A stretch of DNA of 33,091 nucleotides from a virus. The notes under the pieces were generated by a model. It was not told the origin of the DNA, searched no databases, and saw nothing but the letters and a program-made list of their open reading frames with translations. The stretch is from IMG/VR virus record IMGVR_UViG_3300035670_000820, positions 1-33,091 of that record, one strand, 5' to 3'. Both the position numbers and the translations under genes were made by a program. Every line of letters starts with the position of its first letter. The first letter of the stretch is position 1. Of the stretch, positions 6,503 to 18,344 are shown piece by piece.

Positions 6503-7654
6503 TTAATTCACAGTTATTCCATTCTTCTTAATAACTAAACTCGGGTCAAGTTTTTTCATTCGGTCAATGATAACTTGGCAATATTTCGGGTCTAATTCTA
6601 TACCATAACATTTGCGTTTAAGCTGGTGTGAAGCTACCATTGTTGAACCTGAACCTAAATAGGCATCCAATACAAGTTTAATTTCTTTCTTAGAATGTCT
6701 GTCAGCGTATTCAAAACACCAATTCATTATCTCAATAGGTTTTTGAGTAGGGTGGTTTTTTTCTTCTCGGTTTGCTTTTGCTCTTGCGTATTCTTTTATC
6801 CTTAATGCATTATTAAAAGAAGTCCATGCCATTTCTCCATCCGCTAAACTAAATCCTCTTTGTCCTTTATCCCAAATAAGCCATCCCATTGTTGGTGGTA
6901 AATCATCTGTAAAATAATTTCCACCCCATATTATTTGATTGTCTGTTATTTGACAAAGGTACTGCAATACTCCGCTTTCAGGTTTTGATTTATCCCAATC
7001 CGGTGCGTCATAAGATTTCCATCCATTTTTATCTGCACCACCTTTACCATCTCCTTTTCCTTTCAACATTCCACCGTAATCAATTCCATATGGAGGGTCT
7101 GTTAATAATAATTCGGGTTTATTTCCATTCAACAATTTTTCTATTAAATCGCTATCAGTACTATCTCCACAAAGCAATCTATGTTCTCCTATTTCAAATA
7201 AATCTCCTAATACGATGTCCGTTTCAATACCACCTTCAGGAACATCAAAATCATCTTCTTCGGCTTCAAGTTGAATTGGAGTTTCAAATTCAGGAATATC
7301 CAAGCCCCATTCATTTAGCTTTTCCGTATCCCATTCAGATTGTAATTGATCCCAGTCCCATTCACCAAACCCAACATTATCTTTAATCAAGAATTCAGTT
7401 TTTTGTTCTTCAGTCCAGTCATCCGCAAGGATAATAGGAAGCTCTTTCAAGCCTACCTCCTTTGATGCCTTTAAACGCATATTACCTCCAAGTACTACAT
7501 ACTTTCCATCTGTATCTGTAAAGCACACCAAAGGTCTTTTTTCAAGCATCTGAGGAAAGTCCTGAATAGACTTTATCAGCTTGTTAAATTTATCATCCTT
7601 GATTGTTCTTGGATTTTTTGGATTTGGTTTTATTTCAGAAATTTTAACTATCAT
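6503..7654 (-). CDS. ParB-like domain fused to DNA (N6-adenine or N4-cytosine) methyltransferase (383 aa)
   Basis: Residues 1-95 form a ParB/Srx-like domain (ISEIKPNPKNPR, then VVLGGNMRLKASKEVG). Residues 145-375 form a DNA amino-methyltransferase: DPPYG at 186-190 is the catalytic motif, HPTQKP at 301-306 and DAYLGSGST at 330-338 the AdoMet-binding motif. Motif IV before motif I is the beta-class order. It would methylate phage DNA, protecting it from host restriction or marking packaging or replication sites. The target cannot be read from sequence. ParB-methyltransferase fusions beside terminase genes are frequent in phages. The gene is AT-richer than most of the genome and GATC is rare in it, suggesting separate origin. 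ATG at 7654 is downstream of an AT microsatellite. Confidence 0.9.
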   Translation of the reverse strand: MIVKISEIKPNPKNPRTIKDDKFNKLIKSIQDFPQMLEKRPLVCFTDTDGKYVVLGGNMRLKASKEVGLKELPIILADDWTEEQKTEFLIKDNVGFGEWDWDQLQSEWDTEKLNEWGLDIPEFETPIQLEAEEDDFDVPEGGIETDIVLGDLFEIGEHRLLCGDSTDSDLIEKLLNGNKPELLLTDPPYGIDYGGMLKGKGDGKGGADKNGWKSYDAPDWDKSKPESGVLQYLCQITDNQIIWGGNYFTDDLPPTMGWLIWDKGQRGFSLADGEMAWTSFNNALRIKEYARAKANREEKNHPTQKPIEIMNWCFEYADRHSKKEIKLVLDAYLGSGSTMVASHQLKRKCYGIELDPKYCQVIIDRMKKLDPSLVIKKNGITVN

Positions 7655-7682
7655 AACTTGTTCTATTTAACATAATATTAAT

Positions 7683-7720
7683 TATATATATATATATTAT
7701 ATTATATTATATTATATTAT
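7683..7720. repeat. AT microsatellite: (TA)7 then five ATTAT units
   Basis: Bases 7683-7696 are TA dinucleotides and 7696-7720 are five perfect ATTAT pentamers, overlapping the stop codon of the 149-residue gene (7717). The tract is purely A/T and separates the sugar-gene region from the AT-rich methyltransferase block. It could serve as promoter spacing or melting DNA, or mark a recombination joint. Copy number at such repeats is prone to change. Confidence 0.9.
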
Positions 7721-8166
7721 TTAAAATCATTGATCTTTGACTGCGCCCAGTCCTTAGCTGCTTTACCACCCCAAAGAAGATAGGATATGTATCCGCAGTC
7801 CTCTGGTGTTCCATTGTCATAGTAGGTCTCTGCACGGGATAGATAGCTGTACATGCGTTTGATGGTCTCGATGGATATCTTCTCTCTGTTGGCGAGTTGC
7901 TGCGCTCTTACCTTGCCTACTTGAGTAGCGCATTTGTTTCCAATCTTCTCATTTAGCTCGATTCCTCTCTTGGCATTGTTGACCACAGCATCAGGATAGT
8001 CATTGTGAGTATCCTGGAACTCATTGCGAGATCTGTCCCATGATGCCTTACATACCGGGTATCGTTGTGTCGATGGATATTCATCCTTCATCTTCTCATC
8101 ACCCATACATCTGGTGACGAACTCATTCTGATTCTCTCCTGGTCTTGGTTTAGGTATTGGCATCAC
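7717..8166 (-). CDS. Conserved phage protein of unknown function (149 aa)
   Basis: The N-terminus (PIPKPRPGENQNEFVTRCMG, then YPSTQRYPVCKASWD) resembles a short motif that recurs in phage and prophage structural or head-maturation proteins. The C-terminal two thirds contain GNKCATQVGKVRAQQLANRE and TIKRMYSYLSRAETYY, a helical domain I have seen only in phage proteins. No catalytic residues are evident. The start MMPIPKPRPG overlaps the stop of the upstream amidotransferase gene by four bases, so it is expressed with the sugar-modifying genes. It does not lie beside the capsid genes, where its relatives usually occur. No function is claimed. Confidence 0.75.
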   Translation of the reverse strand: MMPIPKPRPGENQNEFVTRCMGDEKMKDEYPSTQRYPVCKASWDRSRNEFQDTHNDYPDAVVNNAKRGIELNEKIGNKCATQVGKVRAQQLANREKISIETIKRMYSYLSRAETYYDNGTPEDCGYISYLLWGGKAAKDWAQSKINDFK

Positions 8167-9233
8167 TTACAGTATTTAACGTAAAATGTATAGGGAACTA
8201 CTTTCATCTTGGCAAGGATCCATATGAATGGTCTGTATGCCTTGAAATTGTATCGAGCATAGGATGACCTATCTCCCTTGCGGATGTTAACGAGCTGATT
8301 GAACTTATCCTGTTTATCACCGAGCTTGTTTAGATCGAACTCTGGCTTGTCATTGAATAGATCCCGGGCTTGTTGCTTGGTTAGTTTTCCGGATCTCACT
8401 TGAGCAGAAAGGTACACGATGCGCTTGTCAATGTTGAATTTATTCGGTAGCAAATAACTGCCTACAAATTCCGTATATACGTTCTCGCAATGCTTGCCTC
8501 CGTAGTCCTGCCATTGGATGAGTTTCTTCATCTCTGTTTCCATGGTCTCTCTGTCGAATCCATAGTGGAAAGGTCTCACGTTCTTGATTCCCTTCCAGGC
8601 ATAATATAGCTGATCCTTGAATGTGAATAGCGGATAGTTCTTAAGATCCTTGTGAGCATATGCCTTGTATACTGATTTGATGTACTTGGCATCCATGTAG
8701 GTCCATGGCTTTGGTGTAGATCCTTCAGTACGGAAGTCATGTCCGTTGAGGATGTACTTGATCTTGTACATGTCAGCAGTCTGGTACATGAGCTTGGTCA
8801 TGGCGATGTCATTGGGGATATCAGCATCAGGAAGTCCAGCGAATAAGAATGCCTCATTGAGTGTATCGTACTCCTGCTTGTTGACCATGAAGGTGATAGC
8901 ATCTACGTTGAGTTTCTTGATGAGCTGCTTCATGTTATGCTCAGCCTCTGGAGCATTCCAATGATTGTCGAAGTGAATGACAAGGGGCTTGAGTCCCCAG
9001 TAACGAACCGCAGTGTATAGCAATGTAGATGAGTCAAGTCCTCCGGATATCCCCATGATACAGTCGTACTTGGCATCGGTATCAGCAGATGATCTGATCT
9101 GATTGATTAATGGGAACAGTTTGGCAGGATCTGCTTGTTTCTGCATGGTATCATGCATGTCGCAGTATTCGCACTGCTTGTGTCCTATGGTTGCAAAGTC
9201 CTCAGTGAAGAGGCATCTCGGGCATTCTTTCAT
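8163..9233 (-). CDS. N-acetyl-sugar amidotransferase-like PP-loop enzyme (356 aa)
   Basis: Resembles the WbpG/PseA-type enzymes that, with a glutamine amidotransferase partner, turn an acetamido group of a nucleotide-linked sugar into an acetamidino group for surface glycans. Two CxxC pairs (Cys4/7 and Cys21/24) form a probable zinc knuckle. An ATP pyrophosphatase loop SGGLDSS lies at residues 63-69, and HFDNHWNAP at 87-95 matches the family pattern. The length is near the usual 370. The start MKECPRC overlaps the end of the upstream glycosyltransferase-like gene by four bases, and the stop overlaps the next gene. No HisH/HisF-like partner was found in this genome, so ammonia must come from the host or the substrate differs. 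Confidence 0.8.
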   Translation of the reverse strand: MKECPRCLFTEDFATIGHKQCEYCDMHDTMQKQADPAKLFPLINQIRSSADTDAKYDCIMGISGGLDSSTLLYTAVRYWGLKPLVIHFDNHWNAPEAEHNMKQLIKKLNVDAITFMVNKQEYDTLNEAFLFAGLPDADIPNDIAMTKLMYQTADMYKIKYILNGHDFRTEGSTPKPWTYMDAKYIKSVYKAYAHKDLKNYPLFTFKDQLYYAWKGIKNVRPFHYGFDRETMETEMKKLIQWQDYGGKHCENVYTEFVGSYLLPNKFNIDKRIVYLSAQVRSGKLTKQQARDLFNDKPEFDLNKLGDKQDKFNQLVNIRKGDRSSYARYNFKAYRPFIWILAKMKVVPYTFYVKYCK

Positions 9234-9955
9234 TTGGTTGATATTTTAACAAAGTTATAGAAATCTTTTGAGACAGAATCTGATAGGTGTCTCTGGTTGT
9301 ATTCATTGAGTATTGACTCACAGATGTCATCAATGCCCTCCCATCTGATTGAATGAGGAAGGTCTCCATTGTATATTGACTTTCGGCCCATAAGTCCCAT
9401 CTGTAGATTGGTGTTCGGGCATCCATCATGAGGAGTGAGTCTCAGGTTGATGAAGCATTGAGAGTATACATCATACAGCTCATCCCGGGTGAATGTCTGA
9501 TAGTCTGCCTTGATGATGGGTATGTTTATCCTCTGCTCGATCTGTTCTATGAGTTCTGATCCGTAGAACTCCTTGCAGCCTTCATTGTAATACCAGTAGA
9601 TCTTGTCACCCTTGGGAGTGCAAGGCCAGTCCTCTGCTATGGTAGCATTGAGTGGAAGGTAGAATGATTTGATGGATCTCTTGGCAAGGGAGTTCTGCAC
9701 CTGTATGCTGATAGCTATATGCATGTGCTTGCTCAGTTCTGCTATCCATTCACCTGGTAGATCCTTGGCATCGGATCCGAACCATACGACAAAGCAATCA
9801 CCTTTGTGATCAATCAGTGCCTGGAGATCTTCCTCTCGGTACATGCCAAAGAATCCGCAAGGCTCATTGAGATCAGTGCGCTCTATCAGATTGTACTTGC
9901 GCATGATGTCATCCTCGAGTCCCTCAAGGCTTTGTGATATCCAGCATTGTTTCAT
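9230..9955 (-). CDS. Glycosyltransferase-like protein (241 aa)
   Basis: I place the start at 9955 (MKQCWISQSLEG), not the upstream ATG at 10042, because the shorter form overlaps the preceding gene by only 32 bases. The C-terminal half (NLRLTPHDGCPNTNLQMGLMG, split here as LTPHDGCPN and LQMGLMGRKS, then WEGIDDICESIL) resembles the nucleotide-sugar-binding end of GT-B glycosyltransferases. The N-terminal half (CFVVWFGSDAKD) looks like the first Rossmann domain, shortened. The protein is small for a GT-B enzyme, so it may be partial or divergent. It lies between a GT-A-like gene and the amidotransferase gene with overlaps on both sides, which supports a shared sugar pathway. Confidence 0.6.
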   Translation of the reverse strand: MKQCWISQSLEGLEDDIMRKYNLIERTDLNEPCGFFGMYREEDLQALIDHKGDCFVVWFGSDAKDLPGEWIAELSKHMHIAISIQVQNSLAKRSIKSFYLPLNATIAEDWPCTPKGDKIYWYYNEGCKEFYGSELIEQIEQRINIPIIKADYQTFTRDELYDVYSQCFINLRLTPHDGCPNTNLQMGLMGRKSIYNGDLPHSIRWEGIDDICESILNEYNQRHLSDSVSKDFYNFVKISTK

Positions 9956-15023: not shown

Positions 15024-15196
15024 TTCGTAAGTTCTTTGAATTTATTTCTTTGAAGTTCATGTAAAAAATTCCAGTGATCTGGCCTCCTTGCTTTCCATTC
15101 GAGTTTCTTTCTGAATGGATTTTTAAAATCATTATTCGATTCAAATAGCTTCACCCTGTTCTTGTTTGCTACTGATAGTCCAAATGCTATTTTCAT
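15020..15196 (-). CDS. Small basic hypothetical protein (58 aa)
   Basis: Starts MKIAFGLSVANKNRVKLFES and ends NKFKELTK. It is rich in Lys, Arg and Asn, and KKLEWKARRPDHWNF gives it a nucleic-acid-binding look, but no family is recognised. Its ATG overlaps the stop of the primase-helicase gene and its own stop overlaps the next ATG, both as ATGA, which supports it as a real gene. Another minus-strand frame across 14875-15144 is a shadow of this pair. Confidence 0.75.
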   Translation of the reverse strand: MKIAFGLSVANKNRVKLFESNNDFKNPFRKKLEWKARRPDHWNFLHELQRNKFKELTK

Positions 15197-17418
15197 TCCT
15201 CAATTTTTTTAATCCATTTGTAAATAATTCTCTTGCTCACCTCCAGGATCTCTGATGCCGTTGTACGATTCAGATTAGGATTCGCCTTATACATTGCTTT
15301 GAACTGCTCAAATTCTGAGAGTGATCCTGTAGTCTTAGCCAATACCCGAAGGTTATTCTTTTCCTTGACATCCATCTTAACGAGCTTACTCATGTTAATG
15401 AAATACTCAGAGAGTCTCTCAGCTCGCTTGATGCTATCCACCTGAATGGTTGCCACCTGGTATTCATCCTCAACGATGCTCCAAATGGTATTCAGGATCA
15501 ATGCGAACCTTGGAATGTAGCTCTTTTGTTTTGGAAGCATACTCTTCATGTACTCATTTTCATCCTCTGAGTTCTGGATGTCCGTGATCTTGTCATGTAT
15601 TCTGATCCATTCTGCCTTAGCCTTGTTATTGAACTTAGCCACGATGCTCTCAATCTCTGCCCTCTCATTAAACTTGAGCAGCTTCTTATTCACCACATCT
15701 CTAAAGTTCATTACAAAGGCCCGGTACCATTCGATGACATCCTCATCCATATGCTCATTGTTGTAGTGATTAACAGATAGCTCAGGATAGCTTATCAGAA
15801 TCCTATCAACGAATCCATTCTCCTTATTGTGGCCCGTAGTGAATTCCTCAAATACCGAAGGCTGGATACCACCAAGAACCGGTATGAATGGCTTATCAAC
15901 AAATGCGCTCTTGGATGTCTTTCTGTTGAGTGAGATGCTGGTGCCTGACCAGGATGACAGCCAGAACTCGAGATCTGATCCTTGCCTGTACTTATTCATG
16001 TCCTTAAACCATCCAGCAAGTTCATCCTTGAATACACCAATAGCATTCGGATTCTGCTCATGTAGATCTACAAGGGCTTCGAGAGTGATGTCACCTACCA
16101 GGAACTGCTTGCTCACAGGCTTATCAATCTCTTCAGCATATTGCTTCTCTTTTTTATCGAGTGCTTCATATTCCTTCCACTTGGCATATTGCTTCACGTA
16201 TTCCTTTTGCTCCTTGACATTGGCCTCACGTAGTGGATAGATCATCTGATTGATGGATGGAGTCTTTCCAATACCAGGCTTTCCGACTATCGCTATCCAT
16301 ACATTGGCGATCTCCTGCCATCCTGGCTTCACCTCAATCTTAATTGAGTTACCGATGATCACAGATGTCAGCCATATGAATGCGGATCCCATGTAGTCCG
16401 TAGATAGTCCCAGAGTATTGGCTGAATGTACGATGTATTTCTGTAGGTCCTCCGGAAAGATATCTAATGGGAACTGAATCCTATCTATGATCTCAGGAAC
16501 CTCTGCCTTGATTTCCACCTTGGGAGCTTTCCTGGATCCGTAGCCTTGTTGGTACAGATCACGAGCTGCTTCTGTGGTATTTCCTCCGTGATACTTGTAG
16601 GCATAGATCATGAATGGGCTGATCAGCTTCTCATTCGGATAGATGGTACCCGTAGTGAACAGATACATGCATCCAGAATCCTTGTATACGTATCCAGAAT
16701 GTGGCGATGTTGCTCCATTCCGCTTGATGATATACCTGGTTGATGTGTTTCTGACTATCGTAAAGTCATCAGATATCAAATCAAGAGCTGTATGCCTATC
16801 GTTATATTCAGCCCATGGAGTGATGTCGGTCTCATTAGAAGCCTTGTAATCGCTTTTCTTTGGTTCATCTATAGTTTGCTCCTCGATGTGATTAAAAGTG
16901 CGTGAAATCGCCCAAATGATATCTCGCTCCTCATTTGTGATGTACTTGATGTCATGGTATTGTTTATCTGTGAGGAAATTTTCATAGATAACTACCATAC
17001 CTCCGGCACCTCTTGACTCAATGATAGCCTCAGATGATCCCTCTGGAGTTGCTATCTTGGTATTGGTACCAACATTCTTGCATTTGTAGAGGATATGGAA
17101 GCCTGCATTCTTTGTTTTAGCTATCACTACCTTGTCAGCAAAGTCCTCGATATTGTCCTCAATGAATGAGATGTATTCTTTCCACCAGGCTTTTTGCTCC
17201 TGGAGTCCAACAAGTACCTTGAGATCTACATCTATCACCTCCAGATCGTTCACACCTGTGACGAGTCCATACAGAGGGGAATCTAATTGCTCTACCTCAT
17301 CGGGTGATCTTGCTTCTGTTTGATATTTTTTCCATGCTCCAATTGGTCTCTTGTTTTCATCTACAGGGATGATGGAGTAACCCAGTGAACTGAGTTTTCT
17401 TAAATAGCTTTTTGTCAT
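15193..17418 (-). CDS. Primase-polymerase / DUF3987-like helicase (741 aa)
   Basis: The N-terminal region (about residues 1-150) resembles bifunctional primase-polymerases: VIDVD at 61-65 gives the catalytic acids, GFHILYK at 107-112 carries the His, and a Ser-Arg-Gly-rich segment follows. A linker precedes a P-loop domain with Walker A GKPGIGKT at 379-386 and a C-terminal region typical of DUF3987 helicase-like proteins (SSWSGTSISLNRKTSKSAF). The last residues (RTTASEILEVSKRIIYKWI) form a helix-turn-helix. I chose ATG 17418 because a TATATTTG -7 box and AACACAGCAAAA leader lie directly upstream; the frame extends to 17481. It primes and unwinds phage DNA, next to the candidate origin. Confidence 0.85.
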   Translation of the reverse strand: MTKSYLRKLSSLGYSIIPVDENKRPIGAWKKYQTEARSPDEVEQLDSPLYGLVTGVNDLEVIDVDLKVLVGLQEQKAWWKEYISFIEDNIEDFADKVVIAKTKNAGFHILYKCKNVGTNTKIATPEGSSEAIIESRGAGGMVVIYENFLTDKQYHDIKYITNEERDIIWAISRTFNHIEEQTIDEPKKSDYKASNETDITPWAEYNDRHTALDLISDDFTIVRNTSTRYIIKRNGATSPHSGYVYKDSGCMYLFTTGTIYPNEKLISPFMIYAYKYHGGNTTEAARDLYQQGYGSRKAPKVEIKAEVPEIIDRIQFPLDIFPEDLQKYIVHSANTLGLSTDYMGSAFIWLTSVIIGNSIKIEVKPGWQEIANVWIAIVGKPGIGKTPSINQMIYPLREANVKEQKEYVKQYAKWKEYEALDKKEKQYAEEIDKPVSKQFLVGDITLEALVDLHEQNPNAIGVFKDELAGWFKDMNKYRQGSDLEFWLSSWSGTSISLNRKTSKSAFVDKPFIPVLGGIQPSVFEEFTTGHNKENGFVDRILISYPELSVNHYNNEHMDEDVIEWYRAFVMNFRDVVNKKLLKFNERAEIESIVAKFNNKAKAEWIRIHDKITDIQNSEDENEYMKSMLPKQKSYIPRFALILNTIWSIVEDEYQVATIQVDSIKRAERLSEYFINMSKLVKMDVKEKNNLRVLAKTTGSLSEFEQFKAMYKANPNLNRTTASEILEVSKRIIYKWIKKIEE

Positions 17419-17436
17419 TTTTGCTGTGTTTGGTTC

Positions 17437-17444
17437 CAAATATA
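17437..17444 (-). promoter_or_regulatory. -7 box of the primase-helicase promoter
   Basis: TATATTTG on the minus strand matches TAnnTTTG exactly and sits 18 bases before the chosen ATG at 17418. No TTTG is found 16-23 bases upstream, so a bound activator may replace the -33 contact; repeated motifs begin just upstream. Confidence 0.5.
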
Positions 17445-17463
17445 CTAAAAACTGTGAACTAAC

Positions 17464-17637
17464 TATGAACTTACTATGCACAAAATAAACGTCAAGTTCA
17501 TACCATTTTCCCAGTGTTTATGCGGGATACAGGCACTATGCACTAAAAGTGCAGAGTAAAATAAAAAAAAATATTTTTTTTCATTCTCATTTTTCAATTT
17601 ATTAAAAGTGCCCTATGAACTCGTTCAGAGTGCATAG
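17464..17637. other. Candidate replication origin / operator array
   Basis: This non-coding stretch (17482-17637 and just beyond) carries repeats in both orientations. TATGAACT is at 17464 and 17614, inverted at 17495. CTATGCAC is at 17474 and 17536, inverted at 17630-17637. AAAAGTGC is at 17545 and 17604. TGCACT-AAA-AGTGCA at 17539-17553 is a perfect inverted repeat. An A/T-only tract (about 17557-17581) could be a melting element. The array lies between a DnaA domain-IV-like gene plus winged-helix-like gene and the primase-helicase. An origin, an operator for those proteins, or both are possible. Confidence 0.55.
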
Positions 17638-17910
17638 CTATTCCACATACAAATCAATCCACTCCTTGATCTTAGCCATGAAATCATATTGCTCCTCAAT
17701 GTATAAGCCATTCACAGTTCTGATGATAGGACAATCGAATTCCTCCTTGAGCAGGGCCATATCCTTTTCAATGATGCTCTGGCTGTATGGATAGCCGGTG
17801 ATATGGCATACCTTATCATGCAATCTGGTGAGCTTGTACGGCCTTACTTGTAGGCAGTAAACTATCACGCTCATTCGTCTTAGTTTCTCTCTCATATGGT
17901 ACTTTGGCAT
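17638..17910 (-). CDS. Winged-helix-like small protein (90 aa)
   Basis: The centre (RLHDKVCHITGYPYSQSIIE, then KDMALLKEEFDCPI) has the pattern of an HTH_11-type winged helix: helix, turn, recognition helix with 'S..iekDma.Lkeef', then a strand pair (IRTVNGLYIE). The end is helical (YDFMAKIKEWIDL). It probably binds DNA. The ATG at 17910 is shared with the last base of the DnaA-like gene stop. Its stop falls at the edge of the repeat array, so it is a natural candidate to bind those repeats. The function as replication regulator is inferred. Confidence 0.65.
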   Translation of the reverse strand: MPKYHMREKLRRMSVIVYCLQVRPYKLTRLHDKVCHITGYPYSQSIIEKDMALLKEEFDCPIIRTVNGLYIEEQYDFMAKIKEWIDLYVE

Positions 17911-18344
17911 CAGATTAGTTGTTTGAATTCGTTGATACTCATCAGTCCATCGAGCTTCTGATATTTCTCAGGATCCATTGATCTAAATTGCAGGACCACA
18001 TGCACCATGTTGTTAGCAATCTTTGCTGTATGCACCATGATCTGATTGTCCTTCAGATTCAATTCAAGCTCCATGTCGTACAGATTAATGGCAGCATAAA
18101 GATCACGGATGGTTTGCATATATACATGGTCCTTTGCTTTCATCCAAACATGATGCGCTCTTATTCCATGGCATACAGATGCATGATCCTTCTCGAAGAT
18201 ATCACCGATTTGCTGAAGGGAGCAATAAGGCCGCAGCTCAGAGTAAAGGTAGTAACGCTTATACACTATCTCTCTGTCCCTCTTTGTGGTGATAAGTCCG
18301 TGATCCTTGGCCAGTTGTTTTATCAAGTCTATTTTTGGATTCAT
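17910..18344 (-). CDS. DnaA domain-IV-like DNA-binding protein (144 aa)
   Basis: Residues 26-63 match the DnaA C-terminal helix-turn-helix: YKRYYLYSELRPYCSLQQIG leading to EKDHASVCHGI, where DHASV (53-57) stands for the DnaA signature DHTTV that contacts the DnaA box. No AAA+ ATPase domain is present, and the rest is an unrecognised helical tail. Such a stand-alone domain could mark the phage origin or compete with host DnaA. It lies directly upstream of the winged-helix-like gene and about 270 bases from the repeat array. ATG overlaps the preceding small gene's stop (ATGA). Confidence 0.8.
   Translation of the reverse strand: MNPKIDLIKQLAKDHGLITTKRDREIVYKRYYLYSELRPYCSLQQIGDIFEKDHASVCHGIRAHHVWMKAKDHVYMQTIRDLYAAINLYDMELELNLKDNQIMVHTAKIANNMVHVVLQFRSMDPEKYQKLDGLMSINEFKQLI

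Follow-up and report, generated by a model that had tools for sequence, protein, structure and literature searches.

A putative iteron-type replication origin that appears to travel with the adjacent primase-helicase gene in uncultured Bacteroidota phages

The window analyzed here is the whole 33,091 nucleotides of IMG/VR virus record IMGVR_UViG_3300035670_000820, which derives from an uncultured Bacteroidota phage encoding a terminase, a portal, an endolysin, and long tail-like genes, with nearly all genes carried on the minus strand. The 33 kb contig carries a 127-bp repeat at both ends and is therefore probably a complete circular genome, while the virus record lists it as linear. A repeat array occupies a 219-bp noncoding stretch (17419-17637) and is preceded, in the order of transcription, by genes for a 144-aa stand-alone relative of DnaA domain IV (17910-18344, minus strand) and for a 90-aa protein that is possibly a winged helix and displayed no family match (17638-17910, minus strand). 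It is followed by the gene for a 741-aa primase-helicase of the Prim-Pol/DUF3987 type with C-terminal HTH-like helices (15193-17418, minus strand), as assigned from Pfam, an AlphaFold model, and the folds of the pRN1 and NrS-1 primases. This gene context was as described in the initial annotation, which had proposed a candidate phage origin at the array. An Rfam search of the 33-kb contig returned no match.

The recurring words on which that proposal was based, several of them inverted, were confirmed and occurred far above shuffle expectation. The words TATGAACT at 17464(+), 17495(-), and 17614(+) and CTATGCAC at 17474(+), 17536(+), and 17630(-) were found nowhere else in the genome, while AAAAGTGC was present at 17545 and 17604 and also at 16894 within the primase gene. 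All were pieces of a single 9-mer, CTATG[AC]ACT, with four exact copies and eight at no more than one mismatch in the 219 noncoding bp, compared to a mean of 0.002 (maximum 1) exact and 0.11 (maximum 2) one-mismatch copies in 500 dinucleotide shuffles. The remaining 32.9 kb contained no exact copy of this 9-mer. A de novo, motif-free repeat score ranked the array first of 598 genome windows with six copies, and shuffles gave a mean of 2.2 and a maximum of 4 (n = 300).

The array opens with three plus-strand iterons spaced 11 bp, namely CTGTGAACT (17452-17460, one mismatch), CTATGAACT (17463-17471, exact), and CTATGCACA (17474-17482, one mismatch), followed by GTATGAACT on the minus strand (17495-17503, one mismatch). 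An exact plus-strand iteron CTATGCACT (17536-17544) forms an inverted pair with CTCTGCACT on the minus strand (17548-17556, one mismatch), and the palindrome TGCACT-AAA-AGTGCA noted earlier (17539-17553) consists of these two inverted copies. The A/T-only tract reported beside it was also present as a 25-bp run (17557-17581) whose position is kept in relatives and which is proposed as the melting site; beyond it, exact copies of CTATGAACT (17613-17621, plus strand) and CTATGCACT (17629-17637, minus strand) form a second inverted pair, such that iterons flank the tract on both sides. In a genome-wide ranking of DNA stability the tract was only the fifth or sixth least stable site. The array also includes a conserved 24-bp element, GCCTGTATCCCGCATAAACACTGG (17511-17534, minus strand), matching the family consensus CTCTGTAACCCTTATAAACACTGA at 18 of 24 positions, and a Bacteroidota-type -7 promoter box (TAnnTTTG), TATATTTG (17437-17444, minus strand), leading into the primase-helicase gene. 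The statement that the repeats do not resemble the DnaA box was too strong: no exact TTATNCACA occurs in the genome, but the iteron CTATGCACA at 17474 matches it at 8/9 positions. Iterons of relatives such as AAATCGGAT, TTTAAACC, and GTACAAAA indicate that this likeness is not general.

Relatives were collected by an IMG/VR scan with the primase-helicase, which yielded 319, of which 80 were kept, and around 100 relatives were compared overall. At least six copies of some local 9-mer were present upstream of the primase in 73 of 76 scored loci, compared to usually two or three copies, and never more than five, in control windows within the primase gene. The layout was largely constant, comprising iterons, the A/T tract, an inverted iteron pair, the 24-bp element, more iterons (after the 24-bp element, often 10-13 bp apart), and the promoter box. 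The 24-bp element matched CTCTGTAACCCTTATAAACACTGA at a mean of 17.5/24 positions in arrays and 13.0 in coding sequence, with uneven clarity among clades, and the TAnnTTTG box was identified in 33 of 41 non-redundant arrays where 4.2 were expected. The iteron word was clade-specific, being CTATGAACT in this phage and GTGTGAAA, GTGGGACAT, GTGTAACA, GTGTGTAA, GTGTAAAG, GTGTAAAC, or GGGCACA in other clades, and the more distant primases from Bacteroidota MAGs were associated with arrays of TTTAAACC, GTGTAACA, and GTACAAAA. In the phage collection, no match spanned 80% of the primase and none was as much as 60% identical to it, so the primase-helicase family appears to lack cultured members in that collection.

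Several further features were observed in these loci. The 24-bp element was inverted in L044, L054, L059, L066, and L074 relative to their close relatives L043, L073, and L080. Homing endonuclease genes (NUMOD4 plus HNH_3) were located between the array and the primase-helicase gene in L024 (2104-2502), L060 (1681-2163), and L061 (468-959), with similar genes in L062, L075, and L078, and this position could help to drive cassette exchange. A conserved leader with terminator-like hairpins was identified between the promoter and the primase start in the L014, L035, L047, and L077 groups; it extends up to approximately 200 bp ahead of that start, is absent from the clade of this phage, and is possibly an attenuator or a small RNA.

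The 144-aa protein is a true relative of DnaA domain IV, matching Pfam Bac_DnaA_C (E 1.2e-6, just under the cut-off of that family) and PDB 1j1v (E 1.4e-5), with DnaA DNA-binding domains as the best three matches in a fold search. It comprises domain IV and a short C-terminal part, and the AAA+ domain is absent. Its gene adjoins the array in most relatives, and both this protein and the winged-helix protein had been put forward as initiators acting on the repeats. The alternative that the DnaA-IV-like (or winged-helix) protein reads the array as divergent DnaA boxes, and thereby starts replication or controls transcription, can draw on this adjacency, on the domain IV relationship, on the single iteron matching the DnaA box at 8/9, and on a partial rank correlation with array similarity across all locus pairs that was higher for the DnaA-like protein (0.39) than for the primase (0.21). 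This correlation was counted as contrary evidence, and it comes from saturated distances dominated by clade structure and is contradicted by direct swaps between loci.

The first of these swaps combined the same small genes with different primases and arrays. Eighteen loci have the same winged-helix gene and a DnaA-like protein that shares 85-100% identity with its L014 counterpart; seven of them carry the DUF3987 primase and GTGTG-type iterons, and the other 11 carry ATCGG-type iterons without the GTGTG word, together with an unrelated primase-helicase (BT4734-like N-terminal, PriCT-1, and DUF5906). DnaA-like proteins 97-99% identical stand beside two unrelated arrays. The 18 loci are related to each other, so the counts do not represent independent events. 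DNA of L005 and L019 was 93% identical across both small genes and 95% identical downstream, whereas the array and primase between them displayed no significant similarity, with only a leader of approximately 110 bp being 82% alike. L139 has two arrays in tandem, first one of the ATCGG type (85% over 184 bp) and then one of the GTGTG type (95% over 332 bp), whereas the DUF3987 primase was the sole primase found in the 9.4-kb stretch; this locus is interpreted from its sequence as a relic of an array and primase exchange.

The second swap was the converse, with L080 and L074/L076 sharing 99% identical primases and unchanged iterons while their DnaA-like proteins were only 38% identical; the DNA was 96-97% identical from the end of the DnaA-like gene through the array and primase. 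Arrays were also present where no DnaA-like gene was found, both in L040-L046, whose records are possibly fragments, and in more distant Bacteroidota MAG loci. The replacement of the stand-alone DnaA domain IV-like gene between collinear genomes (17910-18344 here and 930-1282 in L080) was an observation in its own right, and selection may act on this gene separately.

Taken as comparisons of gene neighborhoods, the two natural swaps amount to a double dissociation in which the array goes with the primase-helicase and not with the DnaA-like gene. Both swaps contradict the DnaA-like protein as the reader of the array, and the 90-aa winged-helix protein was likewise rejected, as its gene occurs in one branch only, is absent from most relatives, and stays in place when the array is swapped. 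A DnaA-IV-like or winged-helix reader is thus very improbable, as near-identical copies of both proteins lie beside two unrelated arrays, the array is unchanged after replacement of the DnaA-like gene, and arrays exist without it. The idea of a new DnaA-type specificity of the repeats falls for the same reasons, the array being dissociated from the DnaA-like gene by the swaps and by the loci without that gene, and the winged-helix gene being mostly absent.

Since the array is exchanged together with the primase-helicase and independently of the two small genes, the simplest reading suggests that the primase-helicase has its cognate site there. This protein unites Prim-Pol and helicase in one polypeptide, and the pRN1 primase was the best structural match of its N-terminal domain. 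The part of the protein that would read the iterons was sought by partial correlations of primase segments with the iteron word and by exclusion mapping of iteron specificity, neither of which gave a convincing segment. Per-column mutual information between primase and iteron word likewise gave no significant column, the best columns (residues 153, 216, 224, and 360) being equaled by 3-31% of label shuffles in a permutation that ignores phylogeny. The C-terminal HTH of the primase fell to as low as 49% identity while the iterons stayed unchanged.

Comparison with known systems placed the array closest in layout to the origins of PICIs, in which two iteron sets surround an AT-rich region and rep plus ori replicate a plasmid (PMC6092414). 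As in the phage, the two sets of short iterons in SaPI/PICI elements lie by a gene for a primase/helicase initiator (PMC6092414; SaPI Rep per PMC7581432) and the iteron words vary between elements. However, the SaPI/PICI origin is 3' of the initiator gene while the phage array is 5' of its primase-helicase gene, and the phage further differs in combining primase and helicase in a single Prim-Pol/DUF3987 protein, in that its array contains or adjoins a promoter and a conserved 24-bp core element, and in being a tailed Bacteroidota phage rather than a satellite island. By analogy, the phage array would function in the manner of a PICI/SaPI-type iteron origin, but its 5' instead of 3' position and its tailed-phage carrier keep it from being classed as a member.

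Other systems share single aspects with the phage. The SCCmec initiator helicase Cch2, linked to an AEP-type primase, uses its C-terminal domain to bind short iterons in noncoding DNA close by, the candidate SCCmec origin (PMC7581432), and its iteron AAGTG is reminiscent of the GTG core seen in many phage arrays, although SCCmec has only three iterons located 3' of the gene, a separate primase polypeptide, and a helicase of the D5/Primase_Cterm type. In PLE satellites the specificity of the RepA_N initiator and the origin are exchanged jointly (PMC8263062), as would be the case in the phage, but with three semi-palindromic iterons of approximately 30 bp and no primase fused to the initiator. 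The related protein ORF904 of pRN1 also fuses Prim-Pol to helicase and differs in using a large stem-loop origin 3' of its gene without iterons (PMC4234260). The DnaA/oriC system resembles the phage locus in placing short asymmetric boxes close to AT-rich DNA, and a DnaA domain IV relative adjoins the phage array; in contrast, the phage protein lacks an AAA+ domain, no exact DnaA box TTATNCACA is present, and the array is independent of the DnaA-like gene. A literature search found no relevant paper on iterons of Bacteroidota phages or on phage proteins of the DnaA-IV kind.

The layout kept in relatives and the linkage to the primase-helicase support the original suggestion of a candidate phage origin, and the 219-bp noncoding stretch is probably the replication origin of the phage, recognized by the adjacent primase-helicase. 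As inferred from the PICI/SaPI, SCCmec, and PLE systems, primase-helicase molecules would bind the iterons, assemble into rings flanking the A/T tract, and melt it; the helicase domain would then widen the bubble, the Prim-Pol domain would make the first primers, and host polymerase would extend them. As the repeats abut the promoter of the primase-helicase gene, iteron binding may also limit expression of this protein. The main rival takes the latter role as the only one, with the array being an operator at which the primase-helicase or another cassette protein regulates its own promoter while replication starts elsewhere. It would account for the TAnnTTTG box that comes after 33 of the 41 arrays and for the leader, conserved in several clades, that places a terminator-like hairpin ahead of the primase, but two iteron sets, an A/T tract, and an internal element extending over 200-400 bp exceed the needs of an operator, and the layout matches proven PICI origins. 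The array also persists in several loci where a homing endonuclease gene puts at least 500 bp before the primase, and a solely regulatory function is considered unlikely.

The GC-skew check suggested previously displayed a monotonic curve with no turn at the array that was confounded by the gene bias, and skew cannot decide on the origin because nearly all genes are on one strand. Elsewhere in the contig, GC skew dipped at 6.5-8 kb and was positive at 8-9.5 kb (6503-9500), a region with genes resembling a DNA methylase (6503-7654) and a PP-loop ATPase (8163-9233), both named by eye, and these genes are possibly recent imports. DNA stability was lowest at 7664-7723, where a noncoding gap carries an AT repeat of the TATATTA type.

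It is similarly very doubtful that the array serves packaging, partition, or site-specific recombination instead of replication. Repeats with inverted pairs are known at such sites too, and the occurrence of the internal element in both orientations could mean recombination between inverted iterons. Against this, the array goes with a replication protein, neither a ParAB pair nor an integrase was recognized beside it among the ORFs and families examined, and over 9 kb separate it from the terminase gene.

It is seldom possible to name the origin of an uncultured phage, and a putative replication origin read by the adjacent primase-helicase has value beyond this phage. The putative rule is that an origin is marked by an A/T tract flanked by iterons and located directly upstream of a Prim-Pol/DUF3987 gene, and it predicts origins in approximately 75 phage contigs and three Bacteroidota MAG contigs. 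The swaps name the partner protein of the array, and the iteron words paired with primases 57-99% identical provide a good set for learning how initiators read DNA. More tentatively, and with somewhat less than even confidence, widespread uncultured Bacteroidota phages may share a fixed origin scaffold of iterons, A/T tract, conserved core element, promoter, and primase-helicase within which around ten different iteron codes arose, the origin and primase-helicase being exchanged as one cassette and possibly thereby escaping rivals or nucleases that target the origin.
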